Shown here piece after piece: positions 24,418-36,644 of a stretch of 39,240 nt of DNA; the first letter of the stretch is position 1, and every line of letters begins with the position of its first letter. Made by a program: the position numbers and the translations under genes. The stretch lies in NCBI GenBank assembly GCA_022071945.1, contig JAJVIN010000015.1, positions 105,001-144,240 on the forward strand, written 5' to 3'. Source of the stretch: Thermoanaerobaculia bacterium. Its GTDB lineage: Bacteria > Acidobacteriota > Thermoanaerobaculia > UBA5066. The notes under the pieces are model-generated. The model saw nothing but the letters and a program-made list of their open reading frames with translations, was not told the origin of the DNA and made no database searches.

Positions 24418-27400
24418 CTAGGGCATCGGTTCCGCCTTGTCGAGGGTCGCGTCACCGGTCTTGTTGTCGATGACGGTCGAGTAGGCGGCGATGACGTCCG
24501 TGCCGCTGATCGAGTCGATGACGACCGAAAGGGAGCTCATGTCGCCTGGTTTGTCCTTGACGAGAGAGTCGATCGAAAGCTGGGCGAAGGGGCGCCCGGG
24601 GCGAAGCCCCAGCCCCTGGACCGCGACCTCGCGGCCCGAGGCGTCAAAGACGCGCACCGTCGCGCCGACCTCGCTGAGGTCGGCAAGCTGCTTTCTCGAA
24701 TCCGCATAGAAGACCGCGACGTTCGACCGGTACTCGGCGCTCGAGCGGAGGCCAGGCAGGACGAGGGCCTTGGCGGATCCAGACGCGCCACTCGCGCCGT
24801 CCTGAACCCGGAAGCCCTGAACACTCAAACCGACCTTGCCGCTTTCCGACAGGTTGTACGTCTTGGCAAGGACCGCCAGGGGATGACCGTTCGGGTGATT
24901 CGAGTCCGCCGTCGCTCTGACATCGAGGAAGGCGTTGGAGAAGCTCCTGCGGTCCGTCTCGGACAGTCCGAGGAACTCCTTGACGAAGTCCTTCCAGACG
25001 AACATCTGCTGCGAGCGAAGGGTCCTGATCTCCTCGGCCTTCTTGCGGACGCCATCGGTCTCGTACGAGTACGTCAGAACCACATCCACTTCTTCGGACT
25101 CCGGGTTGAAGACGACGACATCACTGCGCCAGACGGTGTCGTTGGCGCCAGGAGCCCGGAGAACGCCCGGGAGACGGTACGTGGAAACGAGTTCTCCCGA
25201 TGGCGGAGTGATCAGGACAGGATCGCGCGAAGACCGGTCGATGACGGTCGCATACGGGAGGACCGCCGCTTCCGCCGATGTGTCATTCGGCACCCGGACC
25301 TCCACCCTCGCCCGGTACGACGAGATCGGTCCATTCACGGCAGGATCGTGCCCCGCCCTCGTCAGGGTATTGACCAGGTTGACGGTTCCCCACGGATTGA
25401 AACGGGCCAGGATGGCCTCGTTGTACCCGATCTTGGTTCCATCCTCGCGATAGAAATCGATGAGGGCCTCGGGGTAGTTCCCCCTGAGGTTCGCGAGCGC
25501 GAGGTTCGAGTAGTTCTGCGTGTCGTCGGACATGCCGACGACGTGATAGACGACGGAGGTCGTACCGTCGGGGTTCGGAATCGAGAGACTCGCCGGGCCG
25601 GGCGTCCACTTGTTGCCGCCGCCCGGGCCGCCGCCGCCGGGACCGCCACCCGATCCCCCGCTGCCACCCGAACCGCCCGTGTCCCCGCCACCGGTCCCTC
25701 CCGAGCCGCCCGTCCCGCCGGACCCTCCAGTTCCGCCCGAACCGCCCGTGCCACCCGAGCCGCCCGTCCCACCCGAGCTTCCGGTGCTCCCGGAAGCGGT
25801 CTGTACGGGCATGATCGAGAGCGAGAGGCCGACGGTCCCCAGATTGCCGCGAGAGGCGTCGTAGGTTCGACCCGTGATCACGGGAACCTGCTTGGCGCCG
25901 GATTCGCCCTTGACGAGGATCGCCCCGGACTTCCGGTCATCCAGCTTGAAGTTGAAGGGAGACGAGCCGAGGATGTTGGCGAACCTTGCCGAGAACCTCG
26001 GGTTGACAGTGATCGCCTTCCAGTTGAACTTCGAGTCCTCGAGATCTGGAATCGCCTGGTTGTTGTCCGTGAACGCCAGCCAGAGATTCAGCGGCTCCGT
26101 TCCCGGGTTGAAGATCGCGACGTCCGACATCCAGAGCGCGTCGTTCTGCCCCGCCGCGAAAACGACACCCGGGATCATCCACGCTCCGGGAAGCGGAGGA
26201 GCCGTGACGGCAAAGGCGTTCGTGTAGAGCGTCTGGCTCTGCGGCGAGATCGTGTCGCTATCCGTCACGACACACTTGATCGTGTACGTGCCTTCCTTCC
26301 GGATCTTGAAGGTCGCCGCCGGGTTCTGAATCCCGTCGATCGCCACATTGCCCGCGAGCGCTGCCGGCTCGACCGACCATGCGTACCGGTAGGGGGCCGT
26401 GCCTCCCGCGACGACGGCGCTGAAGGGAACGTCCGCCGTCTTGTTCGCCCCGGGGATCTGCACCCCCGCGAAGTAAGACGGCGAGATCGAGGCCGTCAGG
26501 GCCGGCGGCCCGGACACGTAGCCCGACATCGTCGCCGAGCCGCTGCCCGAGGCGGTCGAATAGCTGACGGTGATCGTCTTGTAGCCCGCGGCCGAATAGC
26601 TGAACGAGACGCCCTGGCCGCTGCCGGTGGCCGGCGTGGCCCCGGAGAACGTCCAGTTGATCGTTCCCTGGACTTCCACGCCATCCCGGAAGATCCGGGC
26701 CACGAGGTTGTCGTTACGCGCAGCCTGGAAGGTCGTGCCCGCGCACGCCATCGGTTCCGCCGTGCCCGGGTTGCGGATTCCGCCACCCGGCCCGCCACCG
26801 GACCCGCCGCTGCCCCCAGATCCTCCGCTCCCGCCAGAACCACCACTGCCGCCAGAACCACCGCTCCCGCCAGAGCCGGACGTCGCCGAGCAGTACTCGA
26901 CCGTGCCTGCCGAGCCCTGAACAAGGACGTGAATCTCCGACACGACCTGTGGAGCCGCGACTGTGACGCTTGCCTGAGACGACTTGCTCTGGGATCCGTC
27001 GGAAACCACGACCGTGCCCGTGAGGGTGCCGGCACTGGCCGGAGTTTTGGTCACGGAAGCCGACGAGCTGCTGGAGCCATCGGAGAACGACCAGCTGTAG
27101 CTATAGGAGCCGCTCCCTCCCGATGCGATCGCCTGGAACGTCGTGCTGTCCCCGAGCGTGATGCTCGAGGGGCTCGCATAGGCCGTGAGGTTGAGGGCCG
27201 GCGGCGCCACGTTCTGAACACAGATCTCCGCCGTCTTCTCGAGAGCGGAGGTTGCGCCAGGCGGCGTGTAGCTGAGGGTGATCGTCCTCGTGCCCACCGT
27301 CGTGTACTTGAACTGCGGGGCCGCCACTGTCGAAGAAGCCGGATCCGCTCCGCTCAGGTTCCACGAGAACGTACCGGTGCTCAGTGTCTCGCTCGTGCCG

Positions 27401-29214
27401 CTATCAACGGCCGTTGCCTCGAGCGTGTCATTCGGAATCGCGGTGATCGCGCAGGCGTTGAGCTCGGGATCACCGGGATTGCGGATTCCGCCACCCGGCC
27501 CGCCGCCGGAGCCACCCCCGCCGCCCGTGCCCCCGCCGCCCGTCCCGCCGCCGGAGCTGACCTTGCGCAGAGAGATCCCAAGGACGATCTGGCGTTCTTG
27601 CGCGCTGACCTTCGTGGGGGTTGCGTTCCAGATCTGGGGCACCACCCCCGTGCAGCTCCCGTTGAGCGTGTAGGCGTACTTGAGCCGGACCCAGTAGTCC
27701 CGGACCTGACTGCCCGGAAGGGGGATGTCGAAGCCCGATCCGCTTCTCGCCGGATCGAGGCCGAACGTCCCGGTGCTCAGAGGCGTTCCGGTACACGCCG
27801 AGTCCCCGCAGAGTTCCCAGGATCCGCCCTGATCGGAAGTCGGGCAGGCGACGACGTTCGATCCAAAGATCGAGTTGTTCGTCACCCTGATCTTGCCCGA
27901 GGTGTTGAGGACCGACGAGGGGATATTGAAGGCGAGGTCGGCCCGATTCGGATCCGGAGGATTGTTGGAACAAGGAACGGAAACCGCCCAGACCTTCGTG
28001 CTGGCGGCCGCGTAGAGGTAGGCGTCGGAACCGTTGCTGAACCCCACCATTTGACGGGGGCTCGAGAAGCGGTTGGCCTCCGCCGTTGCGACTCCAACCG
28101 TGAGGCTGCTTCCGGCCGTGGCGTTGACGAATCCCCAGCTCGCGGCCGTGGAGCGAACGAAGAAGGCCTGAGGCGACGTCCCGTTGTGGAAGGCGGCGGC
28201 GGCGTTCGATTCGACGCCGGAGCCCTGTCCGCTGAACGGTGCCGGCACGGCCGCCGGACTGCCGGGAACCTTCGTGACGACCCCGTCCGGCGTGAGGACA
28301 ACGGCTCCTATGGGTCCTGGGCGGAAGCCGTCAACGAGGTCCGCGAAGATGTACAGGCGGTCAGGGGCCGTCGGAGAGACCGCGATCGCATAGTTGTTGA
28401 TGTACGTGTTCGCACTGGCTCCGAAGTCAGAGGGACTCACCGAGTAGAAGCGCAGGGCCCGGGCGATGCCGCCGCTCGAATAGGCTCCGGAGGCATCGAT
28501 GACGACGATGGACTCCCCATCCCTGCGATAGGCGAAATAGTTCCCGGCCGAGCGGGCATTGGAGTTCTGGCCGCTCGAGGGAGAGCTGACGACCTCCGAG
28601 GGAGTACTTCCCGGCTCCGGGTAGCCGCCGTTGCCCGTGGGGTTCGTGATGTCGGCCACGAGGAGGAACTCGCCGTACAGGGCGAAGCCGAGGTACTTAC
28701 CATCCGTGCGCCCGACGACTCCAACTCCGGTGGGCCGGTAGCCTCCGAACTGGCCGGCCACCCGGAAAACGGGGGCGGAGGGAGTGAGGATGAAGACGCC
28801 CTCGGGGGAGTCCGACCAGCCGACCAGGGCTCGCTGGCCGTCACTGGAAACCGCCAGTTCCTGGACCGTGCTCTGACCGTCGCCCACCTTGACGACCGGC
28901 CCGCCGCCTCCCGCCGTGATCATGTTGTGGTGACCGGAGGCGAACGGGGAAGACGGCGACGAGAGCGAGGCCGTCGAATACCCGAAGCACTGACCGGCCA
29001 TCAGATTCTTGTCCGTGGTCCCATAGACTGAGACGTAGTTGATGTAGCCAGAAGCAAAGATCTGGGGCCGCCCAGAACTGAGGTCCACCACGTTGGGGAC
29101 GATCCCGGTGGCGTTGCATTGAGCCCGAGCCGTTCTGGATCCGAGGAATCCGAAAGCGAGGAGCAGGAACAGCGGGATCGCCAGGACGGGAGTTCTCACG
29201 GGGGACTTTTTCAT
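24418..29214 (-). CDS. Very large secreted modular protein (propeller-like start, PKD-like domains, Gly-rich linkers)
   Basis: 1598 aa. Signal peptide to about residue 32 (VLAIPLFLLLAFGFLGSRTARAQ). Residues about 35-540 look like a beta-propeller or WD-like region (repeated strand pairs such as ELAVSSDGQRALVGW and YAIAVSPTAPDRLYIF). Then come Gly/Ser/Thr-rich linkers at about 552-579, 778-815 and 1140-1202. Between them are Ig/PKD-like domains (for example SYSYSWSFSDG, PYRYAWSVEP). From about residue 1010 on are four modules like those in the 8158-9594 protein (WMIPGVVFAAGQNDALW, YRLPGVLRAPGANDTVW, LVLPGLRSSAEYRSNV). No enzyme motif seen. Likely an extracellular or surface structural/adhesion protein. 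Strongly GC-biased, with long antisense open frames that are not genes. Confidence 0.85.
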   Translation of the reverse strand: MKKSPVRTPVLAIPLFLLLAFGFLGSRTARAQCNATGIVPNVVDLSSGRPQIFASGYINYVSVYGTTDKNLMAGQCFGYSTASLSSPSSPFASGHHNMITAGGGGPVVKVGDGQSTVQELAVSSDGQRALVGWSDSPEGVFILTPSAPVFRVAGQFGGYRPTGVGVVGRTDGKYLGFALYGEFLLVADITNPTGNGGYPEPGSTPSEVVSSPSSGQNSNARSAGNYFAYRRDGESIVVIDASGAYSSGGIARALRFYSVSPSDFGASANTYINNYAIAVSPTAPDRLYIFADLVDGFRPGPIGAVVLTPDGVVTKVPGSPAAVPAPFSGQGSGVESNAAAAFHNGTSPQAFFVRSTAASWGFVNATAGSSLTVGVATAEANRFSSPRQMVGFSNGSDAYLYAAASTKVWAVSVPCSNNPPDPNRADLAFNIPSSVLNTSGKIRVTNNSIFGSNVVACPTSDQGGSWELCGDSACTGTPLSTGTFGLDPARSGSGFDIPLPGSQVRDYWVRLKYAYTLNGSCTGVVPQIWNATPTKVSAQERQIVLGISLRKVSSGGGTGGGGTGGGGGSGGGPGGGIRNPGDPELNACAITAIPNDTLEATAVDSGTSETLSTGTFSWNLSGADPASSTVAAPQFKYTTVGTRTITLSYTPPGATSALEKTAEICVQNVAPPALNLTAYASPSSITLGDSTTFQAIASGGSGSYSYSWSFSDGSSSSSASVTKTPASAGTLTGTVVVSDGSQSKSSQASVTVAAPQVVSEIHVLVQGSAGTVEYCSATSGSGGSGGSGGSGGSGGSGGSGGSGGSGGGPGGGIRNPGTAEPMACAGTTFQAARNDNLVARIFRDGVEVQGTINWTFSGATPATGSGQGVSFSYSAAGYKTITVSYSTASGSGSATMSGYVSGPPALTASISPSYFAGVQIPGANKTADVPFSAVVAGGTAPYRYAWSVEPAALAGNVAIDGIQNPAATFKIRKEGTYTIKCVVTDSDTISPQSQTLYTNAFAVTAPPLPGAWMIPGVVFAAGQNDALWMSDVAIFNPGTEPLNLWLAFTDNNQAIPDLEDSKFNWKAITVNPRFSARFANILGSSPFNFKLDDRKSGAILVKGESGAKQVPVITGRTYDASRGNLGTVGLSLSIMPVQTASGSTGSSGGTGGSGGTGGSGGTGGSGGTGGSGGTGGGDTGGSGGSGGSGGGPGGGGPGGGNKWTPGPASLSIPNPDGTTSVVYHVVGMSDDTQNYSNLALANLRGNYPEALIDFYREDGTKIGYNEAILARFNPWGTVNLVNTLTRAGHDPAVNGPISSYRARVEVRVPNDTSAEAAVLPYATVIDRSSRDPVLITPPSGELVSTYRLPGVLRAPGANDTVWRSDVVVFNPESEEVDVVLTYSYETDGVRKKAEEIRTLRSQQMFVWKDFVKEFLGLSETDRRSFSNAFLDVRATADSNHPNGHPLAVLAKTYNLSESGKVGLSVQGFRVQDGASGASGSAKALVLPGLRSSAEYRSNVAVFYADSRKQLADLSEVGATVRVFDASGREVAVQGLGLRPGRPFAQLSIDSLVKDKPGDMSSLSVVIDSISGTDVIAAYSTVIDNKTGDATLDKAEPMP
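25610..25796 (-). repeat. Gly-Gly-(Ser/Thr) linker repeat, third linker of the large secreted protein
   Basis: Encodes about 62 residues of GGTGGSGGT-type sequence ending in GGGPGGGGPGGG. A near-perfect 9-bp codon-triplet repeat, so slippage-prone. Read in antisense it gives a Pro-rich open frame that I reject. Confidence 0.85.
26770..26882 (-). repeat. Gly-Gly-Ser linker repeat, second linker of the large secreted protein
   Basis: Encodes (GGS) repeats followed by the hinge GGGPGGGIRNPG, which is also found at the first linker. Confidence 0.85.
27478..27560 (-). repeat. Gly-rich linker, first linker of the large secreted protein
   Basis: Encodes GGTGGGG-type sequence ending in the same hinge GGGPGGGIRNPG as the second linker, with nearly the same nucleotide sequence. 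Confidence 0.8.
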
Positions 29215-29367
29215 AGATTCACCAGCGGGGAGGGGGGTTCGTGGCGGTTGAGGAGAGACACTGAAGTCAACGTGGGCCCCTAACGCAGTTTTTCCGGACA
29301 GGGCCCAGACGTGGCCCGCCGGAGACGATCTTACACGAAGTGCTCTGACGAGCCCCCTGCTAACAAG

Positions 29368-29391
29368 AAAAGGGGGCTTGCGCCCCCTTTT
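29368..29391. terminator. Rho-independent terminator, usable on both strands
   Basis: AAAAGGGGGC and its complement form a perfect 10-bp stem with a 4-nt loop (TTGC on the plus strand). The T-rich ends serve as U-tracts in either direction. It lies after the 642-aa gene on the minus strand. The rest of 29215-29429 upstream of the 1598-aa gene holds a TTGACT at 29265-29270 on the minus strand but no -10 at proper spacing. Confidence 0.85.
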
Positions 29392-29429
29392 TACCCCATT
29401 GGATGGAGTGATTTCGGCCTAGGCCTGGA

Positions 29430-31358
29430 TCACTTGTAGCTGTAGGTGCCCTGCGGGGCGTTGGTGTTGGCGTTGCGGTTGAACTGCAGCGACTGGATTC
29501 CGGGGTACCAGCGGGTCTCGGCATCCGCGCCGTCCCAGGGCTGGTTGGGGATACCGGCCGGATTGAAGATCCGGGCCGGGGTCAGCGTGCCCACGCCGAG
29601 TCCGATCGGACGGCAGAGGAACTCGCCATCAAGCAGGTGGGCCGGGTGGCCAACGCTGAGGGCGAAGCCGGGGCCGGAGTGCTGGATGCTGAGGTAAGCC
29701 TGGTTGGACATGTACGGATAGCGGCCAGCGGGCGGCGGGAGGGTCTTCATGCGGACGTCGATCCAGCCGAACTCGAAGGGCTTCGGGTTGATCCCGCGGG
29801 CGCCAACGATGTTGATGCGCTGGGACTCGAGGAAGATGTACGGGATGGTCGAGGTGCCCTGGCACTCGGGGTCGCCCGACGGGCAGCCCTGTCCGGAGGA
29901 GAGGTTGACTTCCTCGTCCTCGTTGAAGGTCTGGACGGTCAGAGCGTGGTAGGCATCATAGAAGCCAGCGTCAGAGGCGCCGTTCGCACGGAGCCAGGAG
30001 CAAAGGTCGACCTGGGTGTACGGGCGGCCCGTGACGGTGGGGTCCTTGTAGACGCTCGCGCGCCACACGGTGAGCTTGGACTCGAGGCTGCCAGCGGCCG
30101 CCATGAAGCGGAAGCCGAAGCGCTCGCCGAGGGGCTCACGACCGTCGCCAGAGAACCGGAAGTGGAACGGAACGGCAGCCACGCCACGGCCGAAGGGGCC
30201 GTAGAACTCGGCATTGGTCGCGCCGATCTTGAAGTTGATGTAACGCTCGTAGAAGGTCTTCGGGTTGCTCGGACGGGTCGAGAGCTGGTTCGGCTCGCGG
30301 TCGAGGCGCTCGTCGAACTCGAGGGCAACCATCGGGTCGCCGGAGATGTTGCCGGCCGGGCCAGCAGCGGCGTCGACGAAGAAGTAGTCGCCAATGAGAG
30401 CGTTCGGGGTGTAGTTCGTGTTCACCCAGATGCCGGTGCAAGCAGAGTTCGCACCCTCACCGCTGTAGCTGGTGCACTGCTGCCTCCAGCCCATCGTGGC
30501 GATCGCGTCGAAGTCGTAGTACTCGGCCTGATCGGGGAACCAGTTGGTGCAGTAGTTGACGACGTCGATCGTCACGTAGCCCGTGAAGACCGCCGGGCCA
30601 GCCGGGAGGTCGTCGGAGGCGCGGGTCGAGGTGCTCTTGGAGCAAACCCAGTTCGCCGGATCGAGGATGCCAGCGCCCGTGGGGGCCTCGAGGGTGTTAT
30701 AGTCGGCGGACTCGTCGAGGGAGGCGAGAACGCGCTTCTGGAAGGTCGAGGGGACCGTGCCATAGGCGTTCCGGCTCGCGGTGCGCGCCGTGTAGATCGA
30801 GATCGCGCGGTAGTGGTCGGAATTCGAGTTCGAATTCGCGACCGCGTCCGCGGAGAGCGGGTGGGGGAACCGGATGTAGGTGGTCTTGCCGAAGCCCGTG
30901 TCGGGCAGGTAGGTCGGGGCGCCCTGCGACGGCCAGTACACGCCGCACGGATCGAACTCGTCCTCACGCAGGCCGCGCTCGAACTCGATGTTCTGAACGG
31001 CGAGGCGCTGGTGGGTGCTGTAGTTCGGGGTGAGCTCGCCGCCGAGGACGTCCGACATCCGCCACGTGGCAACGTCGTAACCCGTCAGGGCAATGTTGTA
31101 GTCAACGACCGGCTTGGAGTACTTGTTCCAAACCGTGACGTGCGCGATCAAGCCCGTCGAGGAGACGTTCGTGATCGCAAGGTTCGTGTCGACGGTGGCG
31201 GCATCGAGGGTGAAGTCGGCCTTCACCGGAGCGGCGACCTTGAAGTAGGGCACCAGCAGCGTGGCGGCCGGAACGTTGTCGACTGAGCAGGTAACGCCCA
31301 GCATCGTCCCGGCGCTCGCGAGCAGGCCGGCGCAAACCAGCGCTTTCATCTTCTTCAT
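29430..31358 (-). CDS. Secreted protein of unknown function, 642 aa
   Basis: Signal peptide in the first 20 or so residues (MKKMKALVCAGLLASAGTMLG). The mature part is beta-rich with many Tyr/Trp/Asn and several Cys (VTCSVDN, DPCGVYWP, WVCSKS, NYCTNWF, QQCTSYSG, NSACTGIW, VDLCSWL, QGCPSGDPEC), suggesting disulfides. Repeated themes such as LIAHVTVWNKYSKPVVDYNIALTGYDV near the N-terminus look like a beta-sandwich. No enzyme motif, anchor or sorting signal found. AGGAG lies 8 nt before the ATG. Preceded by a strong promoter and a long leader, and followed by a strong terminator, so it is a single-gene unit likely made in quantity. No function assigned. Confidence 0.8.
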   Translation of the reverse strand: MKKMKALVCAGLLASAGTMLGVTCSVDNVPAATLLVPYFKVAAPVKADFTLDAATVDTNLAITNVSSTGLIAHVTVWNKYSKPVVDYNIALTGYDVATWRMSDVLGGELTPNYSTHQRLAVQNIEFERGLREDEFDPCGVYWPSQGAPTYLPDTGFGKTTYIRFPHPLSADAVANSNSNSDHYRAISIYTARTASRNAYGTVPSTFQKRVLASLDESADYNTLEAPTGAGILDPANWVCSKSTSTRASDDLPAGPAVFTGYVTIDVVNYCTNWFPDQAEYYDFDAIATMGWRQQCTSYSGEGANSACTGIWVNTNYTPNALIGDYFFVDAAAGPAGNISGDPMVALEFDERLDREPNQLSTRPSNPKTFYERYINFKIGATNAEFYGPFGRGVAAVPFHFRFSGDGREPLGERFGFRFMAAAGSLESKLTVWRASVYKDPTVTGRPYTQVDLCSWLRANGASDAGFYDAYHALTVQTFNEDEEVNLSSGQGCPSGDPECQGTSTIPYIFLESQRINIVGARGINPKPFEFGWIDVRMKTLPPPAGRYPYMSNQAYLSIQHSGPGFALSVGHPAHLLDGEFLCRPIGLGVGTLTPARIFNPAGIPNQPWDGADAETRWYPGIQSLQFNRNANTNAPQGTYSYK

Positions 31359-31575
31359 CTAGCTAACTCCTAAAGGAATTCGAATTGAAAAACTTGTGAT
31401 CGGTGGACCAGATCGAAAAACCGAAATAGGACGCTCTGTTACGGACGTTCCCCGATGTAACCGTCACCTCCCGGCACTCAAGATCCTCAGAAATAGCCCC
31501 GTGACCCGGCACCGCCGCCCTCTGGGCGGGAGTCGGACCGAAGGTCCAAGGGCTGGAGCAACTCGGCAACATGTG
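31359..31575 (-). other. Long structured 5' leader of the 642-aa secreted protein gene
   Basis: About 217 nt from the predicted transcription start to the ATG. Two compact hairpins follow each other near the 5' side: GGACC-UUC-GGUCC (31535-31547) and CCGCCC-AGA-GGGCGG (31515-31529). A further GTCAC/GTGAC pairing lies in the middle. It matches no riboswitch class I know; the GEMM (cyclic di-GMP) consensus was checked by eye and is absent. Confidence 0.45.
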
Positions 31576-31581
31576 GAGGGA

Positions 31582-31610
31582 ACGTTAGAGGCGATATTCG
31601 AAAAAGTCAA
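31582..31610 (-). promoter_or_regulatory. Sigma70-type promoter of the 642-aa secreted protein gene
   Basis: On the minus strand TTGACT (31605-31610) and TAACGT (31582-31587) are separated by exactly 17 nt. The -35 is near-consensus, the -10 weaker. Start is predicted near 31575. Confidence 0.6.
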
Positions 31611-31649
31611 CCCCTGGGAGCAAGAAATATGTTGCTACCGCATAGACCT

Positions 31650-33335
31650 CTAACGGAGCGTCCGGAAGTACTTGAAGCCACCCTCTCGCGTCTTGTGCGA
31701 CGTCAGGGTGTGGTACATGAGTACTACGTCGGCCACGCCGTCGCCGTCTACGTCCCGGATCCGCAGGGAGCCCGCGCTGTTGGCGAAGGAGGGACTCAGC
31801 TTGGGGTCCATCTCCTCGAACTCCCCTTCCGGGGTCTGAAAGAAGATGTGGATCTTCCCGTCCGACTCGTCGGCGTAGGCGACGTCATCGAGCCCGTCGC
31901 CGTCCAGGTCCCCCACGTCGAGCCCGGTGGAGCCGAGCCCCTTGCCCCACTGCGAGACCCTCTTCTGGATCCGCTTCTTCTCCCAGGCGCCGAACTCGGT
32001 CTGGTAGTAGATGGTGATGCCGTCGCCGCTGATCATGACGTTCGCGGGCCAGCTCCCGCTCTTCAGGTACGAGACGAAGGCCGCCGGACGGCCCTTGTAG
32101 ATCCCCCAGCGTCCGGCCTGGTGCGTCGCGAAGTTCTCGATCAGCTCCTTCGCCGAGCCGCCGACCCGGAACGTCTTCTGGGCGCGGTCGTAATAATAGA
32201 GGACCATCTTGAACCCGACCGTGCGGCACGCCGAGACGTAGAGCGGGTTTTCGGCCGGGGGGGTGGCGGGCCTGACGGCGATCGAGTACCCCCAGCAGGC
32301 CGACCAGAGTCCCTTCGAGTCCTCCACGAAGTTTCCGTCCTTCCAGAAGAAGGCCCGGGCGTCGAAGCCCTTCACGTAGCCGGTTTCATCCGCCGCGCCT
32401 CCGGTCATGAGGGCGTTGAGCTGGTCATCGGACATGTCGAGCTTCTCGGGCGTCTCGGACTGCGCGACCAAATCGAGGTCCCCGTCACCATCGAGGTCGA
32501 CGAGGGCGAGGCCCTGGGCCGCCATCTTGGTCGGGAGCCCCCGGCGCTCCAGGCGGAACTTGCCGCCCCCCTGGTTCATCGCCACCGTCAGGGCACCGTC
32601 ATGGGTTCCGAGGACGAGATCGGGCTTGCCATCCTTGTCGAGATCGCCGGCGACCACGCCTCCGAAACCGAAGCGGAATCCCTCCGGGATCTCGAACTCG
32701 AGCTTCTGCGCCTCCCACTTCGTGGCATCCGCCGAGAGCTTGAACACCTGGGGAGACATCGTGCTGAGCCTGGGGGGAGGAGAGAGGATCTCGAGCCTCC
32801 CGTCGGCATCCATGTCGTAGAGGTCGAAATTCGTGCGCCACTGGCCTGTCACCGGAAGGCCCGCCGAGAACTCGGCGAACTTCCAGGTCTTTCTCGAACG
32901 GGCCGGGGTCACGACCTGACCCTCCTCCACGGGGTATTCAGGCTTCTGCTCGGCTTCGGCCTGGGCCGCGGCACGCTTGGAGGTCGGCTTGGCTGCCTCC
33001 GGCACCTCGACGTAGGCGTAGTTTTCGTCTTCCCGGATGATGGGGATGCCCTCGGGGTCGTTGACGACCACGTTGTAGAGGCGGCCGTCCTTGACGAAGT
33101 TCATCTTCTGGAGCTTGCGGTAGCCGACGAGGGTCTTTCCCGTCTCCTTGTCCTTGAAGGGTTGAGTCACTTCGGGGAGGGCGGGGGTCGCCGTCGCGGC
33201 CGGGGAGCTGGCCGTGGTCCCGGAAGGCCGCGCCGCGGACGCCGGCTCGGGCTTCTTGACCTGGCTCTGGCAACCCGCCAGCGAGGCTAGAACGGCGGCA
33301 AGGCCGAGAAGGAGTGGAAGAGGCTCGTTTCTCAT
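31650..33335 (-). CDS. FG-GAP/VCBS-repeat lipoprotein
   Basis: 561 aa. Lipobox LASLAGC gives a lipidated Cys at about residue 22. A Pro/Ala/Thr-rich linker follows, then a short charged region (RAAAQAEAEQKPEY), then FG-GAP-type beta-propeller repeats with calcium-binding Asp loops: DMDADGRLEI, DLDKDGKPDLVLG, DLDGDGDLDLVA, DLDGDGLDDVAYA and DVDGDGVADVVL. Such repeats usually form an integrin-like propeller at the cell surface. AGGAG stands at good spacing before the ATG. It is 59 nt after the ABC permease gene on the same strand and may share its transcript. Possible roles are adhesion or polysaccharide binding; no direct evidence. Confidence 0.88.
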   Translation of the reverse strand: MRNEPLPLLLGLAAVLASLAGCQSQVKKPEPASAARPSGTTASSPAATATPALPEVTQPFKDKETGKTLVGYRKLQKMNFVKDGRLYNVVVNDPEGIPIIREDENYAYVEVPEAAKPTSKRAAAQAEAEQKPEYPVEEGQVVTPARSRKTWKFAEFSAGLPVTGQWRTNFDLYDMDADGRLEILSPPPRLSTMSPQVFKLSADATKWEAQKLEFEIPEGFRFGFGGVVAGDLDKDGKPDLVLGTHDGALTVAMNQGGGKFRLERRGLPTKMAAQGLALVDLDGDGDLDLVAQSETPEKLDMSDDQLNALMTGGAADETGYVKGFDARAFFWKDGNFVEDSKGLWSACWGYSIAVRPATPPAENPLYVSACRTVGFKMVLYYYDRAQKTFRVGGSAKELIENFATHQAGRWGIYKGRPAAFVSYLKSGSWPANVMISGDGITIYYQTEFGAWEKKRIQKRVSQWGKGLGSTGLDVGDLDGDGLDDVAYADESDGKIHIFFQTPEGEFEEMDPKLSPSFANSAGSLRIRDVDGDGVADVVLMYHTLTSHKTREGGFKYFRTLR

Positions 33336-33394
33336 TGAGGTTCTCCTAAGTCAGGGCATCGGTTGGGATGAAACCGGAGAAGGCGTGGAAAGAC

Positions 33395-34162
33395 CTAGAT
33401 CAGGTCTGCGAAATCGGGCCGGCTCCTGCGGAAAAACCAGAGCCCCGCCACCGCCACCAGAAGAAAGAGGGCGGCCTGCAGGGCGAGCCGGCCGGCCGGC
33501 GGCGGCACCCCTCCGGCGAACGCGGCCCGGAAGAGGGCGAGCAGGTCTCGGAACGGGCTGAAGGCAAGGATGGGCTGAAGACGGGCTGGAACCTGATTTT
33601 CCGGATACAGGACCGGGGTCAGGTACAGGACCGCCATCAGAAGGGACGGCAGGACCTGAGTCACGTCGCGGAAGAAGACCGCGATGGCCGCCAGGGCCAG
33701 AACCGGACCGGTCAGCAGGAGGAACTGCAGGAGAAATGCCACAACGGCATAGGACGGGCGGGGGCGGATTCCGTACCCCAACCCGGCAATCAGGGTCAAC
33801 GAGAGGAGGGCGGCCCCTTCCAGGGCAAGCGTGGCCAGGATGCGGGAGATGACGAGCGTCTCGGCCGGGAACTGCATCTTCTTGACGAGGTGAGAGTTCT
33901 GAACGACCGAGGCCGACCCCGAGAGGATGCTCTCGGAGATCGCCATCCACGGTAACCACCCGGAAAGCAGGAACATAGGGTAGCCTCCGGGAAGATCCGG
34001 AGGGGGCGGCACGCGAAGAATCAGGCCAAAGACGACGCCGAAAATGGCACACTGGAAGAGCGGGGTGAGCAACCCCCAGGCCAGCCCGCCGATGCTGCCC
34101 GAGAACCGCACGGACATCTCCCGGGCCGTGAGTTCGATCACGAGGTAAGACCAGCGCCTCAA
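33395..34162 (-). CDS. ABC-2 type transporter permease, polysaccharide export (Wzm-like)
   Basis: 255 aa from a TTG at 34162, with GAGGG 9 nt upstream; this gives RRWSYLVIELTAREMSVRFSGSIGGLAWGLLTPLF, the usual N-terminus of Wzm/KpsM-type permeases, and the usual length of about 260. A longer in-frame shadow should be ignored. About six hydrophobic helices, with WLPWMAISESILSG, SHLVKKMQFPAE and LYLTPVLYPENQVPARLQ, all typical. It would export an O-antigen or other glycan with a Wzt-type ATPase, but no ATPase gene is in the window beside it. Divergent from the XRE gene; the FG-GAP lipoprotein follows. Confidence 0.85.
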   Translation of the reverse strand: MRRWSYLVIELTAREMSVRFSGSIGGLAWGLLTPLFQCAIFGVVFGLILRVPPPPDLPGGYPMFLLSGWLPWMAISESILSGSASVVQNSHLVKKMQFPAETLVISRILATLALEGAALLSLTLIAGLGYGIRPRPSYAVVAFLLQFLLLTGPVLALAAIAVFFRDVTQVLPSLLMAVLYLTPVLYPENQVPARLQPILAFSPFRDLLALFRAAFAGGVPPPAGRLALQAALFLLVAVAGLWFFRRSRPDFADLI

Positions 34163-34192: not shown

Positions 34193-34230
34193 TTGACTTT
34201 TTCCCGGGAGCCCCTCATCTTCTAATGAGG
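34193..34230 (+). promoter_or_regulatory. Candidate promoter and palindromic operator of the XRE gene
   Basis: TTGACT at 34193-34198, with a weak -10 (CATCTT at 34216-34221) 17 nt later. A perfect 6-bp inverted repeat CCTCAT-6 nt-ATGAGG spans 34213-34230; it overlaps the -10 and contains the GAGG ribosome-binding site, so it could be an operator for the encoded HTH protein or an mRNA hairpin masking the site. Confidence 0.4.
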
Positions 34231-34237
34231 TTATAGC

Positions 34238-34666
34238 ATGGCTACCGTGCCCCAGCCCTCCCAGATCCTCCTCGTCGGCCAGAAGATCCGGCTGATCAGG
34301 AAGAGCCGTCGGCTGACTCAGGCGAGTCTGGCGGCGCAGATCGGGGTGACTCAATCCGACCTCTCCAGGATGGAGAACGGGGAGTACAAGGTCGGGCTCG
34401 ACGTGCTGTTCCGCATCCTTCAGGTTTTCGAGCTTCCGCTGAGCCGGTTCTTCGACGAGATCCCGGCGGAGGAGGCGGTTCCCAGCCCCAGCCCGCACAC
34501 GGACGACGAAGAGCAGATCGTGGAAGACCTGCGGCAGCTCTCCGACGAGTCCCGCCGAGAGGTCCGGGAGTTCATCGCCTTCAAGAAGATGCAAGCCTCC
34601 CACCGCGAACGGCGCCTGGACAGGGTAGAATCCAGCGAATTGTCCCGGGAGCAAGAGGATGACTGA
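34238..34666 (+). CDS. XRE-family transcriptional regulator
   Basis: 142 aa. Helix-turn-helix in residues about 13-70: GQKIRLIRKSRRLTQASLAAQIGVTQSDLSRMENGEYKVG, with the recognition helix in TQSDLSRMENG, then VLFRILQVFELPLSRFF typical of the XRE/Cro fold. The C-terminal half is acidic and then Lys/Arg/Glu-rich, without a recognised ligand domain. GAGG lies 7 nt before the ATG. The last 8 nt overlap the TPR gene, so the two are translationally coupled. Likely a local regulator, possibly of itself and of the divergent permease; inferred from the palindrome in the promoter. Confidence 0.88.
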   Translation: MATVPQPSQILLVGQKIRLIRKSRRLTQASLAAQIGVTQSDLSRMENGEYKVGLDVLFRILQVFELPLSRFFDEIPAEEAVPSPSPHTDDEEQIVEDLRQLSDESRREVREFIAFKKMQASHRERRLDRVESSELSREQEDD

Positions 34667-35576
34667 AGAACAAATTCTGGATCCGAGGAACGCTGCCGAG
34701 GGCGCGCGGTCGCGCGCGTTGCTGTTCCTCGAGAAGGGCTCCTTCTCCGAGGCCCTCGCCGAGTACGACGTCGCGCTCGGCCTGGCCCGCGAGACGAAGG
34801 ACCCCTCCTTCGCCGACTGGATCTACGCGTGCCGGGCGACGGCCGCGGCCGAGTGCACCGACGCCGATGCCGAACTCCTCGAGCTGAAACGAATCCTGCT
34901 CCGGTCGCGCGACCCCCAGACGTCGTTCCGCGCGGCCTACACGAGCTCCCGCATTTACGAGATGCGGCGGGACTTCAAGAAGGCTCTCTTCTACAACCGG
35001 CTCGCCCGCGACCACGCGAAGAACCTCGAGGACATCGCGCTCGCCGGGCACGCCGAGAACCAGCACGGCAACCTCCTGACGTCGGACAGCTCCTTCACGG
35101 AAGCTGCCTCCGCCTATCAGAAGGCCCTCCAGATCGTCAGCTCGATCCCCGACTTCCCCGAAACCTGGCGGGTGATCTGGCGGGAGAACCTCGGCTACTG
35201 CTACCTCGCCCTCGACAGGATCGAGGAGGGGCTCGCGACCGTCCACGGCTGCTTGCAGTTCCTGGAAACCGAGGGGGCTCTCTCGTACACCGTCGTTCCT
35301 CTCATGGACCTCTGCTACGGCTACCTCAGGTGCGACCGCTTCGGCGACGCCATCGCTCATGGCGAGCGCGGGTTCGCGAGACTGCACCTCGTGGGAGATC
35401 CTTCGGTCGAGAAGAACCTGTTGTACCTGCTCGGCGAGGCCTGCCATCTCGGGGGGCACACGCAGGCGGCCGAGATCTACTTCGACAGACTGGCCAGTCT
35501 CTATCCCGACTTCCGGAACCTGAGGGCGTACCTGGACGTCTTCGACTTCCGCAACGTCATCAACCTTAGGGCCTGA
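34659..35576 (+). CDS. Tetratricopeptide-repeat (TPR) protein
   Basis: 305 aa, no signal peptide, so cytoplasmic. Helix pairs of the TPR type run through it: ARSRALLFLEKGSFSEALAEYDVALGLA, YTSSRIYEMRRDFKKALFYNRLA, QHGNLLTSDSSFTEAASAYQKALQI, LGYCYLALDRIEEGLATVHGCL, LCYGYLRCDRFGDAIAHGERGF and LLYLLGEACHLGGHTQAAEIYFDRL. Starts with an 8-nt overlap of the XRE gene. In known RNPP-type regulators an HTH and a TPR sensor are fused; here they are separate but coupled, so the TPR protein may bind the regulator or a peptide. That is inference. Followed 9 nt later by a secreted-protein gene. Confidence 0.85.
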   Translation: MTEEQILDPRNAAEGARSRALLFLEKGSFSEALAEYDVALGLARETKDPSFADWIYACRATAAAECTDADAELLELKRILLRSRDPQTSFRAAYTSSRIYEMRRDFKKALFYNRLARDHAKNLEDIALAGHAENQHGNLLTSDSSFTEAASAYQKALQIVSSIPDFPETWRVIWRENLGYCYLALDRIEEGLATVHGCLQFLETEGALSYTVVPLMDLCYGYLRCDRFGDAIAHGERGFARLHLVGDPSVEKNLLYLLGEACHLGGHTQAAEIYFDRLASLYPDFRNLRAYLDVFDFRNVINLRA

Positions 35577-35585
35577 GGTCTTACC

Positions 35586-36644
35586 ATGATGAAAAGACTC
35601 CTCCATCGTCTCCTTTCCGGGATCGGAGTCTTCGCCGTCCTAGCGAGTGGCCCAGCCTTCGCCGACGGGGTCTCGGTCCTCTCCCGTGGCGGGACTCTGT
35701 ACGAGCTTCGCGACAGCACCCCCGAAGGCGCAGTGTCCACGGGTCTTTTCCTTCGGACCGTTCAGGACGGCCGCAGTGAGGCCTGGATCCCCGTGCCGGG
35801 CACGGCCGATTCCGCTTCCGAGGTTCCGGGCGACATCCAGTTCGAGGAAACGACCAACTCCGTCTTCATCGCCTACACGAAGAACGATTACCTGCAGTCG
35901 AGGGTCGACTTCGCCGTCTACCGCAACGGCTCCTGGATCTCCGGCCCCCTGGCGGCCAACATGGGGTTCTACGTCTCCATGAACCCCAAGATCGTGGTGA
36001 CGCGGCAGCGCTACCTCGACTACAACCTCGCGCACGAGGTCGTCTCCAAGACCCGGTCGATTCTTTCCATCGTCTGGTGGGAAGAGGCCTACACCCGGCA
36101 GGCCCGGTACGCGCCGATCTTCGTCGAGGACGGTGACCTCAGGCTCGAGGACACGGTCGCCTACAACATGCCCGACCTGGCCGGCGAACGCCCGAGCTCC
36201 GAGGGAGGGACGTACCCGTCCGCCATCTACTCGTACCCCTCCGTCGAGCCCGATCCGGGTTCGAACGGAGGCGTTCGCGTGGCTTTCGCGAGCCTCTCGA
36301 CCGGCAGCTTGAGCGTCGTGAGGATCAGCTTCCCAGAGGATCTGACGAAGATCAATCCAGACCTCTCGGACGGCGACAAGATCACGAAGGCTCGCGGGCA
36401 TACGCCGGTCGGACGGACCGTCAGCCGGACACCTCTGAACCGCGAGATCGACACGGCCTCGGCCGTCTACACGGCGCTCTCCGCCAGCAGCATCCCGACC
36501 CTGTTCTGGAGGGAAGGCAACGAGATGTTCTATCGCCGGGCGGACGCCCCGGCCGGGAGCCGCCCCGTCAAGCTTCCGCTCGACGGCAAGCTCTCGGCGG
36601 ACCGGGCCGAGCGTCTGATCCGGGAAATGGCCTCGCGGGACTAG
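35586..36644 (+). CDS. Secreted protein in the XRE/TPR operon, unknown function
   Basis: 352 aa. Signal peptide MMKRLLHRLLSGIGVFAVLASGPAFA, cleavage at about residue 26. The mature part is beta-rich with Ser/Tyr/Asp-rich strands (EETTNSVFIAYTKND, VVSKTRSILSIVWWEEA, GGTYPSAIYSYPSVEPDPG); the alternation resembles a beta-propeller, but no clear repeat motif was found. GAGGTC stands before the first ATG; a second ATG directly follows. 9 nt after the TPR gene and followed by a strong terminator, so it is the last gene of the three-gene operon. Confidence 0.78.
   Translation: MMKRLLHRLLSGIGVFAVLASGPAFADGVSVLSRGGTLYELRDSTPEGAVSTGLFLRTVQDGRSEAWIPVPGTADSASEVPGDIQFEETTNSVFIAYTKNDYLQSRVDFAVYRNGSWISGPLAANMGFYVSMNPKIVVTRQRYLDYNLAHEVVSKTRSILSIVWWEEAYTRQARYAPIFVEDGDLRLEDTVAYNMPDLAGERPSSEGGTYPSAIYSYPSVEPDPGSNGGVRVAFASLSTGSLSVVRISFPEDLTKINPDLSDGDKITKARGHTPVGRTVSRTPLNREIDTASAVYTALSASSIPTLFWREGNEMFYRRADAPAGSRPVKLPLDGKLSADRAERLIREMASRD

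Follow-up and report, generated by a model that had tools for sequence, protein, structure and literature searches.

Three adjacent, co-oriented genes, which encode an XRE-family helix-turn-helix protein (XRE), a tetratricopeptide repeat protein (TPR) and an exported protein (SEC), form a real and old unit that has been kept together across much of the Acidobacteriota and is, for that reason, very probably one circuit. In the window, by which we mean the whole stretch of 39,240 nucleotides analyzed here from a 6.2 Mb Thermoanaerobaculia genome, the XRE gene (34238-34666, plus strand, 142 aa) combines an HTH with a short SinR-like C-terminal segment. The TPR gene (34659-35576, plus strand) follows and encodes a seven-repeat protein of 305 aa with the conserved C-terminal tail FDFRNVINLRA, and the SEC gene (35586-36644, plus strand) encodes 352 aa made up of a signal peptide and a domain of a beta-propeller family. 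The XRE and TPR reading frames overlap by 8 nt (ATGACTGA) and a gap of 9 nt separates TPR from SEC, so that the three open reading frames and their spacing are as the initial annotation of this DNA had them. The flanks of SEC, 9 nt on its upstream side and 77 nt downstream, leave little room for another gene. Upstream, XRE has a 75-nt intergenic region in common with a divergent ABC-2 (Wzm-like) permease gene (33395-34162, minus strand; ABC2_membrane, Pfam E 6e-16), downstream of which lies an FG-GAP repeat lipoprotein-like gene (31650-33335, minus strand; FG-GAP_3, E 1.4e-29).

We investigated the distribution of the three genes in 101 relatives of the class Thermoanaerobaculia and found TPR in 94, SEC in 93 and XRE in 91 of them, with TPR in single copy in most of its 94 genomes. 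It is mostly the same genomes that miss XRE, TPR and SEC together: all three genes are absent from G001, G006, G013, G053, G082 and G084, G042 is without TPR and XRE and has SEC reduced to a 53-codon remnant, and G019 and G097 are without XRE and SEC and give weak TPR matches. The remnant (G042:C22:86955-87116) corresponds to the C-terminal part of SEC and looks like the trace of a loss of the whole unit. At 41 class loci picked by TPR, a SEC open reading frame was present in all 41, XRE and the permease in 35 each and the FG-GAP gene in 32, and most intergenic gaps lay between -23 and +20 nt, the exceptions reaching 150 nt. The coupling of the trio genes is thus far beyond chance. Searches that started from XRE gave the same picture. 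Among 82 XRE matches (80 loci of largely named genome records and the window), TPR was the next gene in 70 and both TPR and SEC followed in 69; the matches without this order lie at contig ends or are relocated copies or paralogues. Almost all of the best 80 loci of the GTDB scan for XRE are titled Acidobacteria or Thermoanaerobaculia, a scan by two peptide patterns that does not in itself prove absence outside the Acidobacteriota, and two carry Deltaproteobacteria titles, one of which (L085) is apparently the class genome G083. A fusion of the HTH and TPR parts, which would be Rosetta-stone evidence, was not seen in the loci examined.

The unit extends beyond the class. In a sample of 149 genomes of the phylum, SEC matches outside the class were weak and partial; once five such loci were opened, the XRE-TPR-SEC order proved to be kept, with XRE at E 2e-40 or better and TPR at E about 1e-72 to 1e-77, among unrelated neighbours and with no permease. 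A second sample of the phylum yielded XRE in 21 out-of-class genomes from nine families. TPR adjoins XRE in all 21 and SEC comes after it in 17; at the remaining loci SEC is cut by a contig end in one and is not detectable in three (L202-L204). Where measured, the out-of-class gaps were mostly -4 to +58 nt, and the SEC starts resemble signal peptides. The initial annotation had suggested a genome search for the same gene order, and that order is borne out by the class loci, by the XRE loci and by other classes of the phylum. Since the trio occurs without the permease outside the class, it is therefore the trio and not the permease cluster that constitutes the ancestral unit; the permease and the FG-GAP gene are class-level companions, and the permease lies outside the ancestral core.

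Departures from the standard arrangement are also informative. In L046 and L052, TPR-SEC modules stand side by side in duplicate, each with its own XRE gene, and in family f13 (L157, L158) XRE has been relocated together with the permease while TPR-SEC is found elsewhere in the same genome. Genus g18 has TPR-SEC with no linked full-length XRE, and what matches XRE best there is a short protein (about 83 aa) encoded elsewhere. TPR is the common member of these arrangements, accompanied by XRE, by SEC or by the two together.

The identities that the initial annotation had assigned to the first two proteins are supported by Pfam. XRE matches HTH_3 with E 3.7e-12 and 46.5 bits against a gathering score of 23, which places it in the XRE family (HTH_3). 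Against the PDB, its profile found HipB, PlcR (residues 9-105) and SinR (13-117), and the similarity to PlcR and SinR extends beyond the HTH, with an alignment to SinR residues 2-110; by profile, these two matches fit a repressor-type XRE protein. HipB-like profiles are the closest NCBIfam entries, and XRE scores below the cut-offs of both HipB (43.5 bits vs 79) and Y4mF (44.8 vs 71.65).

The putative trio promoter is sigma-70-like (34193-34221, plus strand), with TTGACT at 34193-34198, a 17-nt spacer and CATCTT at 34216-34221. A CTTGAC(A)-N17-TATCTT-like block is conserved in 10 close relatives and is the sole conserved promoter feature within the window's family, and TTGACN-N16..18-TANNNW occurs in 66 of 89 XRE upstream regions, compared with 0.5 in mononucleotide shuffles. 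A palindrome over this promoter, CCTCAT-N6-ATGAGG, had been put forward as a binding site. The sequence is literally present at 34213-34230, but it is missing in all 10 close relatives, it overlaps the -10 region and its right arm is, by eye, the likely Shine-Dalgarno sequence; on this comparison it is a chance feature and not an operator. A different dyad, CTATG-N9-CATAG (at most one mismatch), was found at 14 of the 89 XRE promoters, compared with 0.1 in dinucleotide shuffles. It sits at the -10 region or just downstream in L038, L039, L042, L095, L118, L122, L123, L134, L138 and others; the window promoter has no such dyad (5 mismatches). In whole-genome searches, five of the eight f11 genomes had a single site for the dyad-bearing promoter pattern of family f11, and three of the nine f8 genomes had a single site for the f8 promoter pattern ending AGCATARAAGTCAACG; in each case the site was the trio promoter. 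The other three f11 and six f8 genomes gave no exact match to these exact patterns, by which diverged sites are missed. These solitary sites suggest that control is by local autoregulation and does not extend to a regulon, and the candidate dyad operator of these other families points the same way.

The TPR protein matches TPR_12 (Pfam, E 9e-10) and shows no signal peptide by eye. An AlphaFold2 model built with 59 homologues (pLDDT 96) predicts a seven-TPR superhelix, for which the best structural matches by VIA-align (Z 22-26) were APPBP2 with its degron, a phage Rap with its pheromone, RapF, LGN and NprR; AimR is also among the matches, and Rap, RapF, NprR and AimR cover nearly the whole chain. 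Because these are mostly peptide-binding superhelices, binding of a peptide or a protein tail by the modelled TPR is plausible. However, the eukaryotic peptide-binding proteins APPBP2 (Z 25) and LGN (Z 23, and ranked first by Foldseek) are no poorer matches than Rap and NprR (Z 22-24), so that an RRNPP role cannot be read from the fold. Pfam finds generic TPR families only among the homologues, and RNPP_C was neither matched by the window protein up to E 1 nor present among the 25 Pfam families found most often in the 59 homologues. In TPR proteins the A helices line the groove. Here most A helices are more conserved than the B helices, Asn is dominant at positions 58, 134, 177 and 253 of these groove-lining helices (the window has Cys at 58), and conservation is highest in the C-terminal tail.

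The third product had been called exported, and by eye it does start with a plain Sec signal peptide (MMKRLLHRLLSGIGVFAVLASGPAFA). Neither a Pfam family above threshold nor a sequence match to a solved structure was found for SEC. In the AlphaFold2 model of the long-form homologue L123 (pLDDT 90), a helical bundle is inserted into a beta-propeller, and the closest structures are PLL lectins, Elp2 and sialidases (Z about 14 for PLL lectins and Elp2). The SEC family is thus predicted to have a beta-propeller fold, modelled on L123, and the window SEC, a short form without the helical insert, was placed in it by alignment. Other examples of the long form are L046:7951-9315, L098:5275-6699 and L041:6309-7706, in addition to L123:3608-5014 itself. 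In 27 SEC proteins we observed a nonamer in two to three copies (ARSHIIEIG, IRGNIIDIG, TRHQLIDVG, ARVHIVLVG and others), with about 98% identity inside one protein, 18-82% per position between proteins and ~10% in the flanks; these proteins were chosen for having repeats, and the identity is partly selected for. At about 31% of the identical nonamer residues the codons differ, which argues against gene conversion as the simple cause of the copies. The model puts the nonamers in helices of the insert, and we accordingly dropped a short motif of the short SEC forms (ARGHTPVGR in the window) as their counterpart. The RGHT of the window SEC (around KARGHTPVGR) also occurs in RRGHTAS, the pheromone of the phage Phi3T Rap, itself a structural match of TPR, and is most likely a coincidence.

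How the trio compares with known systems bears on the claim in the initial annotation that it might be a new type of circuit, a wording that is too strong. In the pLS20 switch, the TPR anti-repressor RappLS20 binds a separate XRE repressor, Rco, and takes it off DNA, and is itself inactivated by the small secreted Phr peptide (PMC8014075, PMC7430634). The trio shares with Rco/Rap/Phr a separate XRE-type protein, for which we infer a repressor role, encoded near a separate TPR protein without a DNA-binding domain, together with an exported third component and a divergent promoter region at the repressor. It differs in that pLS20 is plasmid-borne in Firmicutes (Bacillus), has rap-phr convergent to rco and not in one operon, and has a small Phr propeptide as its third gene, whereas here all genes are co-oriented, the unit is class-wide in genomes, and the adjacent exported product is no small peptide but a 352-aa beta-propeller-family protein. 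The trio plausibly works like the pLS20 switch. RRNPP receptors (Rap, Rgg, NprR, PlcR, PrgX) are similar in the modelled TPR superhelix, which APPBP2 and LGN match equally, in the XRE-type HTH and in the reach of the XRE profile to PlcR; the trio differs from them in having HTH and TPR on separate chains and in belonging to Acidobacteriota. RRNPP detection looks for a TPR receptor of 250-500 aa beside a secreted propeptide of 10-100 aa, in a survey that comprised Firmicutes and viruses only, and the systems known so far come from Gram-positive Firmicutes and from mobile elements of these bacteria (PMC10075063). Because it has no such propeptide and no RNPP_C match, the trio is not an RRNPP system by definition. 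XRE resembles SinR of Bacillus in being a small XRE protein with an HTH and a short C-terminal segment. SinI, the partner of SinR, is a small helical antagonist and not a TPR protein, and the SinR/SinI pair is not known to have an exported partner. In its predicted fold, the SEC family is like PLL-type lectins and sialidase-like beta-propellers. No paper combining XRE family, tetratricopeptide repeat, operon and Acidobacteri was found in the literature searched, where the trio is apparently undescribed.

We tentatively propose a self-regulated operon, in which XRE represses its own promoter and TPR acts as a hub that adjusts XRE according to SEC. XRE would bind its own promoter region and repress the operon, perhaps together with the divergent permease. 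The cytoplasmic TPR would bind XRE and make the grip of XRE looser or tighter depending on the occupant of the TPR groove, and this occupant would be set by the third gene product, be it unexported SEC, a piece of SEC or a partner of SEC. SEC itself would be the exported output, an envelope propeller protein, and the circuit would keep SEC production in step with SEC export or with the condition of the envelope. Repression, the binding of XRE by TPR and what TPR reads are what we infer here; joint presence and absence, the kept order, the duplicated modules, the movement of XRE in trans with the permease, the dyad, the single-site promoter patterns, the TPR fold, the distances and the pLS20 precedent count in favour of the model, and the window promoter without the dyad, the TPR-SEC of g18 without a linked full-length XRE and the Rap-equal matches of APPBP2 and LGN count against it.

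It is rather unlikely, though a serious alternative, that TPR is devoted to SEC, as its cytoplasmic chaperone or export adaptor, and that XRE only autoregulates the operon, untouched by TPR. TPR-SEC is the tightest link, given the SEC frame at every TPR locus of the class, and it persists in g18 and at other loci without an adjacent XRE; the absence of a linked full-length XRE in g18 means that TPR may serve SEC independently of XRE. Partial correlations of pairwise distances over 28 complete loci, with the permease and FG-GAP genes controlled, were also highest for TPR-SEC (0.44), compared with 0.21 for XRE-SEC and 0.20 for XRE-TPR, and each of the three exceeds the 95% permutation level (about 0.13). 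The distances favour a direct TPR-SEC relation, which is only suggestive and which keeps the chaperone explanation alive. However, XRE-TPR coupling is equally tight where the two are linked and is kept even in the out-of-class loci L202-L204, where SEC is not detectable, and a Sec signal peptide normally needs no private cytoplasmic chaperone. There is only a small chance that XRE is functionally tied to the divergent permease/FG-GAP cluster with TPR-SEC as a mere passenger: XRE and the permease do occur together without TPR-SEC at five class loci (L083, L084, L086, L088, L090), and their partial correlation, with the other three genes controlled, is 0.32 over the 28 complete loci, but this explanation sits poorly with the permease-free trio outside the class.

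The initial annotation had gone further, towards a cell-cell or envelope-sensing circuit, with a split sensor in which TPR controls XRE and the exported protein is an output or a signal precursor. What has held of the sensor is the conserved unit, the nearness of the TPR structure to RRNPP receptors and that of the XRE profile to PlcR and SinR; the palindrome as operator has not. SEC as a signal precursor is possible, and weak in view of a 352-residue protein of a propeller family, where a small propeptide would be expected, and of a TPR protein without RNPP_C. It is improbable that the trio is an RRNPP-like cell-cell circuit, in which exported SEC would be cleaved to give a peptide that re-enters the cell and binds TPR, and TPR would then control XRE. 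The nearly full-chain matches to Rap, RapF, NprR and AimR, the conserved groove-lining helices with their four Asn positions and the near-identical, lineage-differing nonamers of the long SEC forms would suit such a circuit, but these nonamers lie in folded insert helices that the window SEC is without, known RRNPP systems come from Gram-positive Firmicutes (PMC10075063) and a peptide importer was not seen at the locus. A toxin-antitoxin pair with XRE as antitoxin is extremely improbable, since beyond the nearness of HipB-like profiles in NCBIfam and the PDB, all NCBIfam scores fall below the family cut-offs, neither partner is toxin-like and inheritance is mostly single-copy and class-wide, not patchy. 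It appears quite unlikely that the trio is a split sensor of a new class, belonging to a Gram-negative phylum, in which the cytoplasmic TPR hub would read the pre-secretory or cleaved propeller protein and directly control the XRE repressor, with the exported protein as the signal. If true, logic of the RRNPP kind would exist beyond the Firmicutes, with a folded protein replacing the short peptide precursor, and if TPR reads SEC, the trio would be an export-coupled or cell-cell switch that does without a gene for a short peptide. Under the chaperone explanation, too, a conserved protein of the envelope and a helper private to it would have been named. The Acidobacteriota are an abundant phylum that is difficult to culture, and to our knowledge only a small number of their regulatory circuits have been described; three genes that stay together across a class and in several further families of the same phylum must be of value to these cells.

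The cluster beside the trio in the window (24418-34162, minus strand) occupies the same place in many class loci. It contains the FG-GAP protein, a secreted protein marked by the motif VPAATLLVPYF, and the Wzm-like ABC-2 permease, beside which no ATPase gene was called; a large secreted protein is often also part of the class-wide permease/FG-GAP cluster. Close XRE paralogues occur away from TPR-SEC in L107, L125 and L129, and those of L107 and L129 adjoin genes that, named by eye, are enoyl-ACP reductase-like and ketosynthase-like.
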